64,000 nucleotides of DNA from Micromonospora matsumotoense (lineage in GTDB: Bacteria; Actinomycetota; Actinomycetes; Mycobacteriales; Micromonosporaceae), in NCBI RefSeq assembly GCF_900091525.1, contig NZ_FMCU01000012.1:124001-188000 (forward strand), read 5' to 3'. This document shows positions 28,729 through 60,240 of the stretch, in pieces. The position numbers and the translations under genes were made by a program. Within the stretch, counting starts at the first letter, position 1. Each line of letters starts with the position of its first letter. Under the pieces are notes generated by a model. The model saw only the letters and a list, made by a program, of their open reading frames with translations. It was not told the origin of the DNA and ran no database searches.

Positions 28729-29694
28729 TCAGCGACGCACCCCACCGCGGGTGGCCATGGTCAGGGCCCGGTGCAGCAACCGCGCGTCGCCCAGCAGCCC
28801 GCGCAGCCGCCGCTCCAACCCGGCGATCGGCACCAGGTTCTGCGGGGCCCGGGGGTCCTTGTACGGCGAGGAGGCGAACCGGGGCAGGGTGACCAGCGAC
28901 AGGTCGGCCAGCGCGATCGCGTCCTGCGGTGCGAGGTCGGGCGAGCACTCCAGCCGGACGATCCCGGCCCAGGGCGCACCCACCGTCACCGGCAGCCGCA
29001 GATACCACGACCAGCCGCCCCAGGCGGTGCCGAGCCGGAACACCGGGGACCGCTGGCCGGAGCCCAGCCCGGTGACCACGGCGGTGAGCCGGGCGTCGAG
29101 ATACTGGCTGTGCTGGGTCTTGATGTAGCCCAGGGTGCGCGGCAGCTGCCGGCGGGCCCGCAGCGGACCGTCCACCACCAGCAGGTCCCCGTCGGCGCGG
29201 GCGGCGTCGGAGACGGCCACCTCCAACGCGGTCAGCGGGGCCTGCACCGCCGCCGGCAGCTTGCTCAGCTCACCCGTGCCGCCGACCCGGTGCACCGGGT
29301 AGCGCACCTGCCCGCAGGTCACCTCCTGCGCCGACGGGCTGGCCGTGAACAGGCCCCGGCCCACCCGTGCCCCGGCCAACTCCGCCATGCCGCGCTCCAG
29401 GTCGCAGCGGACCACCCCGGCCGCGTAGGAGGCGGCGATCCCCGGGTACGACGCACCGTCCTCCTCGGCCGTCCACACGCTGGCGTCGATCCGGCGTACC
29501 CCGTCGACGAGCAGCACCACGGCGGGGGCGGCCACCCCCGGGCGTGGCCCGATCGCCCGCCAGTCCACCGCCGGCAGTTCCACGTCGGCGTCGACCTGGG
29601 TGCTGCTCGGCGTCACCGGCCCGCCCGGGGTCGCCTCGAACGACGCCCCGTAGGACGGGTCCCAGGCGTCCACGAAGAGCTGCGGCCCGGTCAC
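28729..29694 (-). CDS. NurA-like nuclease domain protein
   Basis: A 321-residue protein with features of the NurA RNase-H-like fold: VVLLVDGVRRIDASVW (first metal Asp, near 64), LLVVDGPLRARR (second Asp), LGYIKTQHSQYLD (the conserved G-x-x-K helix), and WAGIVRLECS (late acidic residue after the strand). NurA works with the HerA motor and Mre11-Rad50 to resect DNA ends in archaea (established there). The gene order here, herA-sbcD-sbcC-this gene, supports the call. The GTG start is overlapped by the stop of a repeat-borne mini-ORF. Confidence 0.75.
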   Translation of the reverse strand: MTGPQLFVDAWDPSYGASFEATPGGPVTPSSTQVDADVELPAVDWRAIGPRPGVAAPAVVLLVDGVRRIDASVWTAEEDGASYPGIAASYAAGVVRCDLERGMAELAGARVGRGLFTASPSAQEVTCGQVRYPVHRVGGTGELSKLPAAVQAPLTALEVAVSDAARADGDLLVVDGPLRARRQLPRTLGYIKTQHSQYLDARLTAVVTGLGSGQRSPVFRLGTAWGGWSWYLRLPVTVGAPWAGIVRLECSPDLAPQDAIALADLSLVTLPRFASSPYKDPRAPQNLVPIAGLERRLRGLLGDARLLHRALTMATRGGVRR

Positions 29695-29853
29695 GTCACC
29701 CTCCGCCGCTGCGCTGCGCTCCTCGCGCTCACCGGGCCTGCCTTTCGTTCGCGACTGCGGGGCTCCGCTGCGCTGCGCTCCTCGCGCTCACCGGGCCTGC
29801 CTTTCGTTCGCGACTGCGGGGCTCCGCTGCGCTGCGCTCCTCGCGCTCACCGG
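29691..29853 (-). repeat. 59-bp repeat array of GTGA-coupled mini-ORFs between sbcC and nurA-like gene
   Basis: The unit repeats with period 59 (starts at 29850, 29791 and 29732 on the minus strand). Each unit opens with GTGAGCGCGAGGAG, whose GTG overlaps the preceding TGA. Mini-ORFs 1 and 2 encode the same 20 residues (VSARSAAQRSPAVANERQAR). The third encodes 13 residues and its TGA overlaps the nurA-like GTG. The sbcC TGA (29849-29847) likewise overlaps the first GTG. So sbcC, three mini-ORFs and nurA form an unbroken chain of GTGA overlaps. A related array lies at 59367-59518. Confidence 0.9.
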
Positions 29854-32321
29854 CCGGTCCGTTCGACGTGGGCGGTGCGGGCGTCCTTGCGGACCTCGAA
29901 GCGCACCGGGATGCGCTCGGCCAGCGCCGGCACGTGGGTCACCACGCCGACCATCCGGTCACCCCGGGCGGCGAGACTCTCCAGCGTGGCGGCGACGATG
30001 TCCAGGGTGGCCGCGTCGAGGGTGCCGAACCCCTCGTCCAACACGATCGACTCCAGGCTGGCGGCCGTGGTGGACATCCCGGCGAGCTGTTCGGACAGCG
30101 CCAGTGCCAGGGCCAGCGACGCCTGGAACGTCTCCCCGCCGGACAGTGTCCGCACCCCCCGGCGCAGCCCCGCGTCGTGATGGTCGACCACAAAGAACTC
30201 ACCCTTGTCGTGGACCAGGTCGTACTGCCCCTGGGACAGCTCCCGCAGGATCCCGGAGGCCCCGTCGACCAGCAGGTCCAACGCCTCGGCCAGCAGCCAA
30301 CGCTCGAAGTTGTTGGCCCGCAGGTGCCCGGCCAACGCCCGCGCCGTCCGCGCCTGCCGCTCGTGCTCGGCGCGTTGTTCCCGCAGCTGGAGGGCCTGCG
30401 CGCGACGCTCGGTGACCCGCCGCAGGTCGGCCTCGGCCCGCTCGGCGGCCACCGCGACCGCCTGCGCCGGGTCGTCGGCGGGACGCAACCCGGCGGCGTC
30501 GAGCAGGCCGCCGATCCGTTCCTCGACCGCCTCGGCGGCCGACTGCGCCGCACCCACCGCGCCGACCAGCCCGTCCCGGTCGGCGCGTCGTCGCCCGGCC
30601 TGTGCGCCGGCCCACCCGACCAGGGTCGTCCAGGCGGCGGCCACGTCGTCCCGGTCGGCGGCCGGCGGACCGAACCGGGCCAGGCCGTCCCGGGTGGTGT
30701 CGAAGTCCCGCCAGGCGGCCCGCAGCCGTTCCTCGGCGGTGTCGGCCGCCCCCCGGGCCCGCCGGGCGGCGTCCCGGCCGGTCCGCACCGCCGCTGCCGC
30801 CTCGTCCAGCGCCTGCCGCAGCCGGGCGTGCTCGGCGAGCTGGTCGCGCAGCGCCGCCGGGGTGGCCGCGCCGGCGAGTTGCCCGGCCAGCTCGGTCAGC
30901 CGGCCGCGCAGCTGGTCGTGCTGGGCGCGGAGCCGGACCAGCGCCCGGTCCTGCTCCCGCGCCGCCTTGTCCCGCTCGTCGACCAGCGCCTGGGCGGCTT
31001 TGCTGGCCGCCCGGGCCGTCTTGCCGGCGGCGGTCGCCGCGGCGACCGCGGAGCCGGCCGGCATCGCCGGCACCCGGGGCACCGACTGCGCGCAGACCGG
31101 GCAGGTCGCACCGTCGACCAGGTGCGCCCGCAAGGCGACCGCCTGGTCGGTGGCCTTGGCCTCCTCGTGGGCCCGGAACGCCGCCTCCAGCTCGGCCTCG
31201 GCCCGCGCGGCCGCCTCCCGGGCCGCGCCGAGGGCCGCCACCGCCGTGTCGTGGGTGGCCCGCGCCGCGTCCAGCGCCACCCGGACCGTGTCGGCCTCGG
31301 CGGTCAACCGCTCCGCGTCCGCGTGCGCCCGCAGCAGCAGCCGCAGGGCGCTCTCGTCGCCCGCGCCGGCCAACTCGCCGCGCAGCTTCTCCTCCCGCTC
31401 CTCGGCCAGCGCCACGGTGCGGGCCGCCCCGTCGACCGCCGCCCGCGCGGTGCTCACCGCGCGGGCCACCTCGGCCACCCCGGCCGGGGCGCGTACCCCC
31501 GCCAGTCCGGCGAGATCGGCGTCGAGCGCGGCCAGCGCCGCCGTGGCCTCACGCGCCGCCGCCCACGCCCGCTCCCGCTCCGGTACGGCCGCCGCGACCG
31601 CCCCGGACAGCTCACGGACCCGCTCGACCTGCGCGGTCGCGATGGCCAGCGTCTCGTCGTCGACGTCGGTCAACCCGCCGAGCACCCGGGCGACCGCCTC
31701 CAGCTTCGCCTCGGCCTGCCCGGCGCGTTCGGTGGCCCGCTTCTGCACGTTCTCGTAGACGCCGAGGCCGAGCAGGTTGACCAGGATCTGCTGCCGGGTG
31801 GCCGGCTTGGCGTGCAGGAAGTCGGCGAACTGCCCCTGCGGCAGCACCACGCAGGAGGTGAACTGCTCGTACGGCAGCCCGACCGCGTCCAGCACGGCCT
31901 GTTCCATCTCGGCCGGGGTGCCGGCCAACACCTCGCCCAGATCCTCCGGGCTGAGCCCGGTGTCCAGCTTGGTGATGTTGAACCCCGGCGGCATCAGCTG
32001 CAACCCGGCGTTGGCGGTCTTGACGGTGCCCCGGCCGTCCCGGCGGACCACCCGGGTCGCCACGTACCGGTCGCCGGCCGACTCGAAGACCAACCGGACC
32101 CGGGCCTCCACCGCCGACGGGGCGAGCGCGTTGGCCAACCCCCGGGTGCCACCCCAGCGGGGGACCGCGCCGTAGAGGACGAAGCAGATCGCGTCCAGCA
32201 CCGTCGACTTGCCCGAGCCGGTCGGCCCGACCAGGGCGAAGAAGTCGGCGTCGGTGAAGTCGACGGTGGTCTCGTCACGGAAGACGGTGAAGCCGGCCAG
32301 ATCCAGCCGCATCGGTCGCAT
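29847..32321 (-). CDS. sbcC: SbcC/Rad50-type SMC-like ATPase
   Basis: An 824-residue coiled-coil ATPase that with SbcD opens and trims DNA hairpins and breaks. Walker A is GPTGSGKSTVLDAI (residues about 31-44), with FEQFTSCVVLPQGQFADFL-like Q-loop sequence. The zinc hook CPVC is at residues 407-410 at the coiled-coil apex. C-terminal RTLSGGETFQASLALALALSEQ is the signature, with IVLDEGFGTLD as Walker B. It is shorter than E. coli SbcC (about 1050), with shorter arms. Its ATG overlaps the sbcD stop (TGATG). Confidence 0.95.
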   Translation of the reverse strand: MRPMRLDLAGFTVFRDETTVDFTDADFFALVGPTGSGKSTVLDAICFVLYGAVPRWGGTRGLANALAPSAVEARVRLVFESAGDRYVATRVVRRDGRGTVKTANAGLQLMPPGFNITKLDTGLSPEDLGEVLAGTPAEMEQAVLDAVGLPYEQFTSCVVLPQGQFADFLHAKPATRQQILVNLLGLGVYENVQKRATERAGQAEAKLEAVARVLGGLTDVDDETLAIATAQVERVRELSGAVAAAVPERERAWAAAREATAALAALDADLAGLAGVRAPAGVAEVARAVSTARAAVDGAARTVALAEEREEKLRGELAGAGDESALRLLLRAHADAERLTAEADTVRVALDAARATHDTAVAALGAAREAAARAEAELEAAFRAHEEAKATDQAVALRAHLVDGATCPVCAQSVPRVPAMPAGSAVAAATAAGKTARAASKAAQALVDERDKAAREQDRALVRLRAQHDQLRGRLTELAGQLAGAATPAALRDQLAEHARLRQALDEAAAAVRTGRDAARRARGAADTAEERLRAAWRDFDTTRDGLARFGPPAADRDDVAAAWTTLVGWAGAQAGRRRADRDGLVGAVGAAQSAAEAVEERIGGLLDAAGLRPADDPAQAVAVAAERAEADLRRVTERRAQALQLREQRAEHERQARTARALAGHLRANNFERWLLAEALDLLVDGASGILRELSQGQYDLVHDKGEFFVVDHHDAGLRRGVRTLSGGETFQASLALALALSEQLAGMSTTAASLESIVLDEGFGTLDAATLDIVAATLESLAARGDRMVGVVTHVPALAERIPVRFEVRKDARTAHVERTGR

Positions 32322-33469
32322 CAGCGCTCCACCTCCTCCAGCAACTCGTCGAACAGGTCCCGTACCCCGTCGTCGTCGTGTCCCCGGCTGCCCAGGTAGT
32401 CGGCGAACAGCTCGCGGGGGGAGCGGCCGGCCCGCTGGGCGACCCGGGTGCCACTGCCCGGGGTGGGCAGCAGCTCCGGGTCGATCCGGATCTCCAACGC
32501 GCGGGGGAACAGCTCCTGCACCTCCTCCCGCAGGCCGGCCCGGGGCTGCTCCCGGACGAACACCCGCAGCCAGCCCTCGGGTGGGGTCGCCTCGGTCAAC
32601 TGGGCGAGGGTGCCGCGCACCGTGCGCAGCGGCACCGCGGCCGCGACCGGGACCTCCCGGATCCGGGCGGCGGAGTGCGCACCCACCTCGACCAGCGTCA
32701 CCGAGCAGACGTTCTCCTGCTCGCCGAAGTCGACCGCGAGCGGGCTGCCGCTGTAGCGGACCGGGCACGGCCCGATCACCCGCTGCGACCGGTGCAGGTG
32801 ACCCAGGGCCACGTAGTGCGCGGTGCCGGGGAAGACCGATGCCGGCACCGCGTAGCCGAGCACCGTGTGCGCGTCCCGCTCGCCACCGCCGGTGGTCGCC
32901 CCGACCACGGTGAGGTGGGCGGTGACCAGGTGCACCCGGTCCGGCTCGGTGAAGCCCTCGGTCAGCTTGGCCAGCACCCGGCCGAGGTGGTCGGCGTACG
33001 TCTGGGTGGCCTCGGCGGCGGTCAGGTCGTACATCTCCACCGCGCGGACCGCGTACCGCTGGGAGAGGAAGGGCAGGGCGGCGAGCTGCCAACGCTCACC
33101 GTCGGCGGTGACGCCGTCGATGACGTGCTCGGCCGGGTTCTCGCGTACCCCGCCGCGCAGGGTGATGCCGGCCGCCTCGGCCCAGGGGCGCAGCGCGTCC
33201 AGGGCGTGGCCGTTGTCGTGGTTGCCGCCGATCGCCACCACGTCGGCCCCGGTGCGCCGCAGCGCGGTCAACGCCCGGGTGACCAGCCGGGTCGCCTCCG
33301 GGCTGGGCGCGGCCGTGTCGTACAGGTCACCGGCGACGATCACCAGGTCGGGGCGTTCGGCGTGGGCGATCTCGATCACCCCGGCCAGCACCTGCTTGTG
33401 CTCCTCGGCCCGGGACTGCCCCTTGAGCACCTTGCCGACGTGCCAGTCGGAGGTGTGCAGGATCTTCAT
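32321..33469 (-). CDS. sbcD: SbcD/Mre11-type nuclease subunit
   Basis: A 382-residue calcineurin-like phosphoesterase. Metal motifs in order: DWHVG (D8, H10), GDLYD (D48), GNHD (N83, H84), TAHLTV, and GHLH near residue 218. The C-terminal capping domain runs past residue 270. It forms the exo/endonuclease with SbcC. The ATG lies 13 bases after herA. Confidence 0.96.
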   Translation of the reverse strand: MKILHTSDWHVGKVLKGQSRAEEHKQVLAGVIEIAHAERPDLVIVAGDLYDTAAPSPEATRLVTRALTALRRTGADVVAIGGNHDNGHALDALRPWAEAAGITLRGGVRENPAEHVIDGVTADGERWQLAALPFLSQRYAVRAVEMYDLTAAEATQTYADHLGRVLAKLTEGFTEPDRVHLVTAHLTVVGATTGGGERDAHTVLGYAVPASVFPGTAHYVALGHLHRSQRVIGPCPVRYSGSPLAVDFGEQENVCSVTLVEVGAHSAARIREVPVAAAVPLRTVRGTLAQLTEATPPEGWLRVFVREQPRAGLREEVQELFPRALEIRIDPELLPTPGSGTRVAQRAGRSPRELFADYLGSRGHDDDGVRDLFDELLEEVER

Positions 33470-33482
33470 GGCTGCCAGCCCC

Positions 33483-35243
33483 CTAGAACGGGATGTCGTC
33501 GTCGGCGCCGCCCGAGCCGACCACGGCGAACGGGTCGATCGAGCCGGTGATCGAGCGCAGCGTCTCCGACGGGGCCCGGCCGGCCTCGGAGACCCGGGTC
33601 GCCCAGGCCGGGAAGGGGAACTCCAGGCAGAGCGGGACCGGGATGTCCGGCTGGTTGACGAACATGGTGCCCGGCTTGGCCAGCAGGGCGCGTTGCCGTT
33701 GGGCGGGTGGCAGGAAGCCGTACTCCGGGCGGGACGCCTCGGCCGGGTCGAGCCGGCCGACCACCCGGATCGCCGAGTTGGTGACGATCCGGCGCTCCAC
33801 CTCGCTCGCCGTCTGCTGCGCGCCGACCAGGATCACCCCGAGCGAACGGCCCCGCTCGGCGATGTCGAGCAGCACCTCCTTGATCGGGGAGGAGCCCTCG
33901 CGGGGGGCGTACTTGTTCAGCTCGTCGAGGACGACGAAGAGCAGCGGCTTGGCGGTGCCGGCCTTCTCCTTGCGCTCGAACTCGCCGCGCAGCGTCACGC
34001 CGACCACGAAGCGCTGCGCGCGGTCCGGCAGGTTGTGCAGGTCGACCACGGTGACCTGGGCGCTCTCGGCGGTGTTGATCGAGTGCGGGCGGCGGGTGGC
34101 CAGGTCGCCCCGGATCAGCCGGCCCAGGTCCTTCTTGCTGCCGATCAGCCGGCGGGCGAAGGCGTTGACGGTGCCCAGGCCGACCGCGCTGCCCGCCCAG
34201 TCGCCCCGGGTCTCGTCGTCGTTGAGTTGCTCGACGACGTGGTCGACCAGGTCGGCGTAGGAGCCGAGGCGCACCCCGTCGACGCTGACCCCACCGTCGG
34301 CGGGCTGGGCGTAGCGGGCCAGGTGGGCGGTGACCGAGTGGACCACCATCGTGTACTGCTGGCGCTCGTCGTCGGCGTCGGCGAAGACGTACGGCAGGAG
34401 GCGGTCGGCGCAGAACTCGCTGAGCGTCCAGTAGAAGGCGTCGACGCCGGTGAGCCGGCTGCTCACGTCGGGGGTGCCGGAGGCGTCGCCGACCCGGGGC
34501 GGGGCGTACACCCGCACGTCGGGGAAGGCCCCGGCGGCCAGCCCCAGCTTGGCGTACGCGGCCCGGGTGGGATCGTCGAGCCGGGCGTTGGGGTGGTCGA
34601 GGAAGAGCAGGTCCTCGCCCTTGACGTTGAAGATCAGCGCCTTGGCGTTGACGGCGTCCCCGCCGAGCACCCCGGAGCGGAAGACCGAGTAGAGCAGGAA
34701 GGTGGCGAAGCTGGTCTTGGTGGCCACCCCGGAGATGCCGGAGATCGACACGTGCGCACCCCGACTGCCGTCGAGGAAGTCGGCGTTGAGATAGACGGGG
34801 ACGCCGTCACGGCCCATCCCCATCGGGATCCGCCGCTCCATCCGGTCGAAGTGCAGCGCGCGGGCCCGGGCGTCGCCCTCGGCCCGGTAGACCGTGGCGC
34901 CCGGCGCGGGGGGCACGTACAGCTCGGGGTCGACCCGGGTGGTGGTGATCTCGGCGGCCTCCTGCACCTGGGCGGGGAGGGTGCCGTCGGCGATGGCGAA
35001 GACGTCCGACTCGAACTGGGCGCCCTCGTGCCGGGCCCGGACCTGGGTGACCACCCCGGCGATGGTGACCGGCTCCCGGTCGGGCAGGTCGCGGCGGGTG
35101 ACCACCACGTCGTCGAGCTGCAGGTAGCTGCCCGGCGAGACGGCCGTCCAGAACTGCAACGGGGTGGCGTCGGCGGTGCCGAGCACCCGGCCGACGGGCT
35201 CGCCGGGGCTGTCGATCCGGCCGTCGGTCCGGTCGTCGGTCAT
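33483..35243 (-). CDS. herA: HerA-like DNA translocase (DUF87 ATPase)
   Basis: A 586-residue RecA/FtsK-superfamily ATPase. The N-terminus (VGRVLGTADATPLQFWTAV, LQLDDVVV) fits the HAS barrel. The P-loop region ISGISGVATKTS (K near 176) is a variant of the canonical GxxGxGK[ST]. Walker B is LLFVVLDELNKY (D440, E441), the sensor is LVGAQQTASEVERRIVTNSAIRVVGRLD, and a C-terminal brace follows. HerA motors pair with NurA nucleases; a NurA-like gene lies in the same operon. It heads the operon, with a 443-base divergent gap before the M4 protease gene. Confidence 0.88.
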   Translation of the reverse strand: MTDDRTDGRIDSPGEPVGRVLGTADATPLQFWTAVSPGSYLQLDDVVVTRRDLPDREPVTIAGVVTQVRARHEGAQFESDVFAIADGTLPAQVQEAAEITTTRVDPELYVPPAPGATVYRAEGDARARALHFDRMERRIPMGMGRDGVPVYLNADFLDGSRGAHVSISGISGVATKTSFATFLLYSVFRSGVLGGDAVNAKALIFNVKGEDLLFLDHPNARLDDPTRAAYAKLGLAAGAFPDVRVYAPPRVGDASGTPDVSSRLTGVDAFYWTLSEFCADRLLPYVFADADDERQQYTMVVHSVTAHLARYAQPADGGVSVDGVRLGSYADLVDHVVEQLNDDETRGDWAGSAVGLGTVNAFARRLIGSKKDLGRLIRGDLATRRPHSINTAESAQVTVVDLHNLPDRAQRFVVGVTLRGEFERKEKAGTAKPLLFVVLDELNKYAPREGSSPIKEVLLDIAERGRSLGVILVGAQQTASEVERRIVTNSAIRVVGRLDPAEASRPEYGFLPPAQRQRALLAKPGTMFVNQPDIPVPLCLEFPFPAWATRVSEAGRAPSETLRSITGSIDPFAVVGSGGADDDIPF

Positions 35244-57911: not shown

Positions 57912-58238
57912 GGCTCGTACCCTACAAGGCGGGCGCGGGCCGGGAAACGGCCGAGCTACCGGCCGCCGGCCGCCTCCGGCCTGGTGTCGGGGCGACCCGG
58001 GCCGCCCTTCGATCCCGCCTCGTCCACACCCGTCACGCGTCGGTGCGGCGGGCCCGCCGCCACGCCGGTGCCGGCCCGGCGGATGGTAATTTCGCCCGGC
58101 GGCGGCAGCGCCGCCACCCGTCCGGCGGATCGCGCCGGACGGGGTCGGTCGTCCGGCAGCAGGTGCCGGGCGGGACGGCGCCGGCCGGTGGCACGGGCCG
58201 GGCGGAGCGGGTCGAGTGGCGGACGGAGGCGATGACCG
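57912..58238. other. Divergent control region of the biotin genes
   Basis: This gene-free stretch separates bioB-bsaP from bioF-bioD. It is GC-rich with small palindromes such as TCCGGCG-GATCG-CGCCGGA. I saw no clear BioQ- or BirA-type operator. A plus-strand GGACGGAGG lies before the bioF GTG. Confidence 0.5.
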
Positions 58239-59399
58239 GTGGCGGACTGGCTGGCGGCCCTGGACCGCCGCGCCGCACTGCGGGCGAAGGCGGGGCTCAC
58301 CCGCACCCTGCGCCCCCGCGCCGCCGGTGACCCCATGATCGACCTGGCCGGCAACGACTACCTGGGCCTGGCCACCCACCCCGAGGTGGTCGCCGCCGCC
58401 GGCCGGGCCCTCGCCGGGTACGGGTTGGGCGCCACCGGCTCCCGGCTGGTGCGCGGGTCCACCGACGTCCACCACGCGCTGGAGGACGAGCTGGCCGACT
58501 GGCTCGGCGTCGAACGGGCGCTGGTCTTCTCCTCCGGCTACCTGGCCAACCTCGCCGCCGTCCGGGGCCTGGTCCAGCCACGTACCCTGCTCGTCTCCGA
58601 CGCCCACAACCACGCCTCGCTGATCGACGGTTGCCGGATCTCCGGCGCGGAGACCGTGGTCACCGCGCACGTCGACGTCGACGCCGTGGCCGCCGCGCTC
58701 GCCGCCGCGCCGGGCCGTCCGGCGGTGGTGGTCACCGAGTCCGTCTTCTCCGTCGACGGCGACCTCGCCCCGCTGGCCGCGCTGCACGCCGTGGCCCGGC
58801 GGCACGGCGCGTTGCTGCTGGTCGACGACGCGCACGCGCTCGGCGTCACCGGCCCGGCCGGGGCCGGCGCGGTGGCCGCCGCCGGGCTCGCCGGTGCGCC
58901 GGACGTGGTGGTCACCGCAACCCTGTCCAAGGCGCTCGGGGGCGCCGGTGGACTGGTCGCCGGTCCGGCCGAGTTCGTCCGCCACCTGGTGGAGACCGGG
59001 CGCACCTTCATCTTCGACACCGCGCCACCGCCTGCGGTCGCCGCCGGGGTACGCGCCGCCGTGGCGCTGGCCCGGACCGCCGACGACCTGCGTGCCGAGC
59101 TGGCCGACCGGGCCCGGCACGCGGTACGCCGCCTCGGCGCGGCCGGGCTGACCGTGTCCGCCCCCGACGGCGCGGTGGTCTCGGTGACCGCCCCCGGCCC
59201 GGAGGCCGCCACCGCCTGGGCGGCCGACTGCCGTGACCGGGGTGTCGCCGTCGGCTGCTTCCGTCCGCCGTCCACCCCGGACCACCGTTCCCGGCTGCGA
59301 CTGACCCTCTCGACCGGGGTGACAAGAGCGGACTTCGAACACGCCCTGGAGGCCATAGTGGAGTGCGCCCCGCAGTCGCGAACCGAGGTCCTGCCGTGA
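58239..59399 (+). CDS. bioF: 8-amino-7-oxononanoate synthase
   Basis: A 386-residue PLP enzyme condensing pimeloyl thioester and alanine. [13 protein letters not shown] opening, [45 protein letters not shown] and the PLP Lys in [11 protein letters not shown] (K231) are all present. The C-terminus differs from relatives: the last 10 residues ([10 protein letters not shown]) are encoded by the 59-60 bp repeat. The stop overlaps the GTG of a repeat-borne mini-ORF. Confidence 0.94.
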
Positions 59400-59518
59400 G
59401 CGCGAGGAGGGAGCCGGGTTTGCGAGCCCCGCAGTCGCGAGCTGAGGTGACGCCGGTGAGCGCGAGGAGGGAGCCGGGTTTGCGAGCCCCGCAGTCGCGA
59501 GCTGAGGTCCTGCCGTGA
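59367..59518 (+). repeat. 59-60 bp repeat array of GTGA-coupled mini-ORFs between bioF and bioD
   Basis: A partial unit (59367-59395, inside bioF) is followed by full units at 59396-59455 (60 bp) and 59456-59514 (59 bp). GTGAGCGCGAGGAG and AGCCCCGCAGTCGCGA are shared with the 29.7-kb array. Because the first unit is 60 bp, the two units read through as one 40-residue mini-ORF ([20 protein letters not shown], then a near copy). It starts at GTG 59396, overlapping the bioF TGA, and ends at TGA 59516-59518, overlapping the bioD GTG. Confidence 0.9.
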
Positions 59519-60240
59519 GCGGGTGGAAGGGTGCGGTGCTGGTCACCGGGACCGACACCGAGGTCGGCAAGACGGTGGTGACGGCGGCGATCACCGCTGC
59601 CGCGCAGGCCGCCGGCCTACGGGTCGCGGTGGTCAAGCCGGGCCAGACGGGTACGGCCACCGGCGAGCCCGGCGACATCGACTCGGTGACCCGGCTGGCC
59701 GCCCCGCTCACCGGTCGCACCCTGTCCAGCTACCCGGACCCGCTCGCCCCGCTGGCGGCGGCCCGGGTCGCCGGGTTGGAGCCGCTGGAGCTGTACACCG
59801 CCGTCGACGCGATCCGCGCGGAGGTCGACAAGCACGACCTGGTGCTCGTCGAGGGAGCCGGCGGGCTGCTGGTGCCGATGGGGCTGCGCCCGTCCGGCGA
59901 GGCGTGGACGGTCGCCGACCTGGCGGTGTCGCTGGGCGCTCCGGCGGTGGTGGTGGCCCGGGCCGGGCTCGGCACCCTCAACCACACCGCGCTCACCCTG
60001 GAGGCGTTGGAGCGGCGGGCCGTACCCGCCGGGGTGGTGATCGGTGCCTGGCCGGCGGAGCCGCAGCTGGTGCACTGGGCGAACCTGACCGAGCTGGTGC
60101 CGAACATGCTCGGTGCGCTGCCGACCGGTGCCGGGTCGATGGACCCGGGGGTGTTCCGCCGGTCCGCCCCGGGCTGGCTCACCCCCGACCTGTACGGGGT
60201 GCTCGACGACTGGCGCACCTGGGCCGAGGACGCCGGCTGA
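59515..60240 (+). CDS. bioD: Dethiobiotin synthetase
   Basis: A 241-residue ATP-dependent enzyme closing the ureido ring of dethiobiotin. P-loop [11 protein letters not shown] (residues 11-21), [19 protein letters not shown] and the C-terminal ATP-binding GAWPAEP are typical. The GTG start (GTGAGCGGG) is embedded at the end of the repeat array. BioA is not in the window, so the pathway is incomplete here. Confidence 0.95.

Follow-up and report, generated by a model that had tools for sequence, protein, structure and literature searches.

MIRU-like interspersed units at stop/start overlaps in Micromonospora and their probable preservation of translational coupling

The short array that separates sbcC from nurA in Micromonospora matsumotoense is probably (we put the chance at roughly 80%) a copy of a small interspersed element, similar to the mycobacterial MIRUs, which inserts where co-directional genes overlap in an NTGA and re-creates an NTGA at each of its ends. 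The window, the whole stretch of 64,000 nucleotides that was analysed (contig NZ_FMCU01000012.1, positions 124,001 to 188,000), carries this array and a second one between bioF and bioD. Dispersal, placement, a frame rule, empty sites, copy-number variation and, in a second family of 80 bp, DTGA-type duplication can all be read from the DNA of this genome and its relatives. From such patterns we infer translation and reinitiation in the cell as well as active mobility. To our knowledge, Micromonospora is not a pathogenic genus.

The repeat lies between sbcC and nurA in a minus-strand operon, herA-sbcD-sbcC-nurA (Table 1). A 59-bp tandem repeat was detected at 29706-29853 (TRF score 296, 100% matches, 2.5 copies), and two of its copies are identical over 59 bp. 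The initial annotation had described three 59-bp units filling the gap; the repeat and its unit length hold, but only two units are full, accompanied by a 26-bp remnant of a third. Because the third unit gives way to other sequence after 26 bp, the steps along the array are 59, 59 and 38 bp, and 38 is likewise 3n-1. The sbcC stop codon (TGA, 29849-29847) is contained in a GTGA at 29850-29847, and GTGA overlaps occur at all four junctions from sbcC through mini-ORFs 1, 2 and 3 to nurA, so the unbroken series described at first is real. The two mini-ORFs said to encode the same 20 residues do so, the product of both being VSARSAAQRSPAVANERQAR, while mini-ORF 3 encodes a truncated product of 13 residues, VSARSAAQRRRVT, and its TGA overlaps the nurA GTG at 29694. 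Within the window the motif GTGAGCGCGAGGAG is matched nine times with at most two mismatches, whereas shuffled sequence would yield 2.1, and its repetition is therefore not attributable to chance; five of the nine are exact and are confined to two arrays. No Rfam match was obtained in the window at the gathering threshold, and a promoter and terminator consensus scan of 29550-30050, whose coverage excludes other promoter types, returned none. The nurA-like label of the downstream gene is confirmed by the NurA match in PDB 7f6d (E 5.5e-20), and HerA from the same entry matches the herA product (33483-35243) at E 2.5e-150. Neither protein has a Pfam or NCBIfam match, which points to a gap in the family libraries.

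Table 1 Features of the two arrays in the window and of their neighbouring genes.
Feature	Position	Strand	Remarks
Full 59-bp unit 1	29791..29849	-	Its TGA is the sbcC stop codon; TRF and pairwise identity
Full 59-bp unit 2	29732..29790	-	Identical to unit 1; TRF
26-bp remnant of third unit	29706..29731	-	Other sequence from there to the nurA start
Mini-ORF 1	29788..29850	-	20 codons, GTGA overlap at each end
Mini-ORF 2	29729..29791	-	Same 20 residues as mini-ORF 1
Mini-ORF 3	29691..29732	-	13 codons, stop overlaps nurA GTG
sbcC, upstream gene	29847..32324	-	Pfam SbcC_Walker_B and SMC_N; best NCBIfam model TIGR00618 SbcC, below cut-off
nurA, downstream gene	28729..29694	-	PDB 7f6d NurA, E 5.5e-20
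Second array of the 59/60-bp family	59397..59515	+	At the bioF-bioD junction; one unit of 60 bp, one of 59 bp
Remnant of a further unit	59368..59396	+	Present end of the bioF coding sequence (QSRTEVLP)
bioF, upstream gene	58236..59399	+	TIGR00858, E 7.9e-114, somewhat below cut-off
bioD, downstream gene	59515..60240	+	TIGR00347, above cut-off

Units of this kind are dispersed through the genome. There are 47 exact matches to TGAGCGCGAGGAG and 64 matches to CCCCGCAGTCGCGA with at most one mismatch; the 27 stretches around matches, taken together with the window, contain 27 arrays and 51 full units, mostly of 59 or 60 bp, beside genes as diverse as bioD, fadB and an ABC permease. The comparison set comprised 190 distinct arrays with 295 units and is not a random sample. 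Beyond this genome it draws on at least 120 named loci from GTDB contigs, titled Micromonospora, Verrucosispora, Salinispora or 'Micromonosporaceae bacterium', and on 30 loci of whole genomes. Most of the 190 arrays have one unit (118), followed by two (47), three (19), four (5) and six (1), and unit lengths in the family range from 56 to 60 bp. The exact unit pattern was present in 37/37 genomes of the genus and in 0/24 genomes from other families of the order, and a family-wide draw of 250 genomes found it in 61/63 of the genus and 27/187 of other genera (88/250 in total).

Placement was scored with upstream and downstream genes recognised by frame length and GC3. After 11 of the 190 arrays were set aside in a first count for lying at the edge of their locus, a long GC3-rich upstream ORF ended exactly in the first unit's TGA in 135 of 179 arrays, and a downstream start was recognised in 171. 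The upstream junction of 186 arrays was NTGA in 138 and TGATGA in 10, with a same-strand gene end 1-90 nt upstream in 27 and none within 90 nt in 11; these NTGA shares are raw shares of the arrays scored. With each orthology cluster represented by a single array, the upstream gene stops in the first unit's own TGA in 63 of 90 (NTGA), a TGATGA occurs in 3, a gene end 1-90 nt upstream in 14 and no such end in 10, so that 24/90 begin at neither exact NTGA nor TGATGA. In arrays scored as NTGA, the units point in the same direction as the genes on either side. Downstream, the junction between the last mini-ORF and the following gene is at -4, at -1 or in frame in 75 of 87 clusters (otherwise in 12), and of the 173 last units for which a gene start was recognised, 128 end at -4. 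Most copies, though not all, thus sit on the overlap itself, in agreement with the original proposal that the element may insert at gene junctions while keeping stop and start coupled.

A second family shares this habit. An 80-bp repeat (TGAGCGAGCGNAGCGAGCGAA...), unrelated in sequence to the 59/60-bp family, was found in L330, L334 and L339 at an ABC-permease junction where the 59/60-bp family also occurs. It has no match in the window at up to three mismatches and no exact match in this genome, and it is present as an exact match in 48/61 genus genomes. Among 41 arrays of this repeat in the loci compared, 36 start where the upstream gene ends in an NTGA overlap; the other end lies at -4 in 28, in frame in eight and otherwise in two, with no start found for three. 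For the 33 arrays with both ends recognised, steps to the gene have a length of 3n-1 in 26 cases, 3n in 7 and 3n+1 in none, though the scoring rule may have picked an internal start in some of the 3n cases. Twenty of the 26 steps of 3n-1 are 80 bp long, and the rest are 74, 71, 50 or 47. In these 26, the base preceding TGA agrees between the two sides in 24/26 against 13.2 expected (0/1000 shuffles), and by cluster in 19/21 against 11.5, with no clear excess of matches further out. MIRU insertion at a DTGA site with duplication was reportedly described by Supply in 1997, and the 80-bp family appears to display duplication of this DTGA type.

Target duplication in the 59/60-bp family is more heterogeneous. 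The sequence GGAGGGCGTCAAGTGAGCGCG flanks the array on both sides in L350, a locus of this genome, and similar long duplications occur in L320, L326 and L343. Over 62 clusters, an exact match of at least two bases before TGA between the left flank and the last tail was found in 27 against 14.2 expected (0/2000 shuffles), the signal residing mainly at position -2 (38.1 vs 19.4 of 62, z 5.5). At sbcC-nurA and bioF-bioD, tails are no nearer to their own flanks than to the flanks of other genomes; permutations reaching the observed mean numbered 1864 of 2000 at sbcC-nurA, 1761 at bioF-bioD, 94 at the ABC permease and 694 at fadA-fadB, in a test that left out loci with a fuzzy left match to a unit remnant, including L326 and L337, which are clean by eye. 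As judged from these comparisons, duplication in the 59/60-bp family is clear at some loci and present on average, but not general.

These data bear on how the units move. Spread might proceed without a dedicated enzyme, by template switching or recombination between the short stretches GGAG and TGAGCG shared at stop/start junctions, and we consider this unlikely. It would account for L320, L326, L343 and L350, where a long stretch from Shine-Dalgarno sequence to start is duplicated and bounded by sequence common with the unit ends. Against it, the 80-bp family duplicates only the base before TGA, which resembles a cut at DTGA, and long duplications are rare in the 59/60-bp family (flank/tail runs of at least eight bases in 2/62 clusters). 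A trans-acting enzyme cutting at DTGA would best fit the 80-bp family, and template switching between short shared stretches would fit the few long duplications of the 59/60-bp family. The enzyme-free route concerns the movement step only and is otherwise compatible with a MIRU-like explanation.

Comparison of orthologous junctions points to both insertion and turnover. Four junctions were compared, each through the best 30 orthologous loci of 101 genomes searched, and full units were found in 9 of the 30 loci at sbcC-nurA, 14 at bioF-bioD, 16 at the ABC permease behind an ABC-type ATPase and 3 at fadA-fadB. At fadA-fadB, the 27 sites without units among the best 30 loci have a simple GTGA or ATGA overlap; at sbcC-nurA, sites without units vary more, and a spacer is present in some of them. 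Copy number at orthologous junctions of different genomes ranges from 0 to 4 within the best 30 loci per junction, and the earlier suggestion that the element may expand at a junction gains support from the 0-4 copies at one junction among relatives. That range, seen at sbcC-nurA itself, would also be expected of an ordinary local tandem duplication retained to tune nurA expression without any mobility, and repeat length is reported to be related to expression at the M. tuberculosis rnc-fpg tandem repeats (PMC2734929). We nevertheless think a purely local origin quite improbable, given that the 59/60-bp unit occurs at 27 places in this genome, beside bioD, fadB and an ABC permease among others, and that empty orthologous sites exist. 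Tuning of expression can still be a side effect.

Lengths within the arrays follow the reading frame. Scoring covered 278 of the 295 units, 15 having no recognised next start and 2 no NTG. Their ends fall at -4 in 182, run in frame into the next start in 58, fall at -1 (TGATG) in 14 and elsewhere in 24; with 254/278 ends at -4, -1 or in frame, and with the placement described above, the pattern that the initial annotation named as speaking against it is not seen, since most copies are neither remote from junctions nor of a length that disrupts the overlap. Unit spacings (n=105) are 3n-1 in 59, 3n in 44 and 3n+1 in 2. By cluster they are 27, 22 and 1, respectively, so 49/50 are 3n-1 or 3n. If the three classes were equally likely the cluster spacings would have P ~4e-8, a value weakened by shared ancestry of unit lengths. 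Arrays with only 3n steps end at -4 in 22/26, those with only 3n-1 steps in 25/38, and those with a 3n+1 step in 0/2. At a 60-bp step a ribosome would read on into the next unit.

Conservation applies to the overlap, not to the peptide. Core lengths are mostly 39, 42 and 44 nt, and the 44-nt core reads its second half in another frame, giving RAPQSRTE instead of the SPAVANE of 39- and 42-nt cores; the commonest tail of the 44-nt core is two bases shorter (15 vs 17), which restores the -4 overlap. It is because the frame changes and the shortened tail compensates that we favour conservation of the overlap. The suggestion that the mini-ORFs make functional repeated short peptides, and are retained for that reason, is hence poorly supported, and we judge it very improbable. 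The identical 20-residue peptides of two units at sbcC-nurA speak for it, as does the N-terminal VSAR shared by the most frequent peptides of every core class, but beside the altered second half, the 58 units that read on into the next start and the truncated third-unit peptide at sbcC-nurA weigh against it. Separately, two positions of the unit are linked, base 13 and the base that precedes CCCGCAGTCGCGA: in the first unit of 184/190 arrays they form a G..C or an A..T combination, and this holds for several core lengths even though no stable fold is predicted.

REP and REPIN elements, too, occur as numerous short copies dispersed between genes. That the unit is a REP-like palindrome mobilised by a Y1 (RAYT) transposase, as size, copy number and intergenic location might suggest, can be rejected as scarcely credible: the predicted folds of five representative units are not more stable than those of shuffled sequences (z -0.48 to 1.20), PF01797, the Y1 transposase family, is absent from this genome and present in 17/61 genus genomes, and the units are co-directional with both neighbours in arrays counted as NTGA. 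The Micromonospora units thus differ from REPs in having no significant hairpin in the five tested and in their stop/start overlaps and frame rule. The enterobacterial RU-1 to RU-3 are likewise small mobile sequences, able to carry open reading frames, but they are MITE-like and 103-168 bp long, and the accessible part of their description holds no stop/start overlap rule (PMC2759123).

The nearest precedent is the MIRU. According to a 2025 review (PMC12548453), MIRUs are apparently mobile mycobacterial repeats that insert at start codons and contain an internal ORF coupled at -4; PMC2734929 gives them as 40-100 bp long, at 41 places and variable in copy number, and PMC4213456 gives 77 and 53 bp for the MIRUs at senX3-regX3, both of which are 3n-1 by our arithmetic. 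The initial annotation knew of no described element class with this property, and with such a precedent that statement was mistaken. Like MIRUs, the Micromonospora elements are small, interspersed, apparently mobile and located at gene junctions, with short units at many places, copy number varying at a site (0-4 units across different genomes) and, on sequence grounds, last units that end predominantly at -4. They differ in occurring in Micromonosporaceae as two mutually unrelated families of 56-60 bp and 80 bp, and in having in-frame (3n) chains alongside 3n-1. In behaviour, the Micromonospora elements appear to work like MIRUs. A literature search, with subscription journals mostly outside its reach, found no report of such elements in Micromonospora, no two unrelated families outside mycobacteria, no frame rule and no element-made tails of host proteins.

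On the MIRU-like reading we propose, each unit would act as a portable relay. The upstream gene's TGA would turn into an overlap with the unit's own NTG start, to be followed by a frame of ~20 codons, a tail resembling a Shine-Dalgarno sequence and, lastly, an NTGA that spans the start coming next. On terminating, a ribosome would pass along the chain to the downstream gene, and because it is handed down in this way, insertion would not uncouple the operon. Unit tails have a predicted anti-Shine-Dalgarno pairing energy of -10.0 kcal/mol where a gene follows and -9.9 where another unit follows; shuffled tails reach -7.1, and the host sequence that precedes the first TGA -9.4. Once inserted, units would gain or lose tandem copies and be eroded by deletions, and some of these deletions would fuse element sequence to host genes.

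The bioF-bioD array illustrates such a fusion. Its 60- and 59-bp units form one in-frame ORF of 40 residues ending in the bioD GTGA, and the C-terminus of bioF carries a fused unit remnant, where the element-free locus L303 encodes VECAP and then a stop. ORFs in L104 and L105 end in LRAPQSRTE plus three residues, also as in-frame fused remnants. Since unit remnants are fused in frame to the upstream ORF ends in all three cases, the element can apparently donate C-terminal protein tails. At the bioF-bioD junction of genome G115 (L308), a unit is seemingly broken by an insert with inverted ends, GCGCATTCCGG...CCGGAATGCGC, which is perhaps a second-level insertion. This matters for annotation, since a unit may be mistaken for extra sequence at the N-terminus of a protein or may, as in bioF, turn into a genuine C-terminal tail.

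More broadly, small mobile DNA of actinobacteria may generally live by inserting at sites of translational coupling, a habit that would have evolved more than once; we hold this proposition to be about evenly balanced. At least two unrelated Micromonospora families and the mycobacterial MIRUs would then have arrived by convergence at a ribosome-relay unit with an ideal length of 3n-1. Such a unit would reproduce the NTGA junction of its host, escape selection by lying within operons and now and then contribute new protein tails. A MIRU-like class of element known mainly from M. tuberculosis strain typing is here accompanied by a large comparative data set of filled and empty sites, copy-number variants, frame classes and two unrelated families, which opens two questions to testing, namely the way in which MIRU-like DNA moves and whether ribosomes are relayed along a chain of mini-ORFs.
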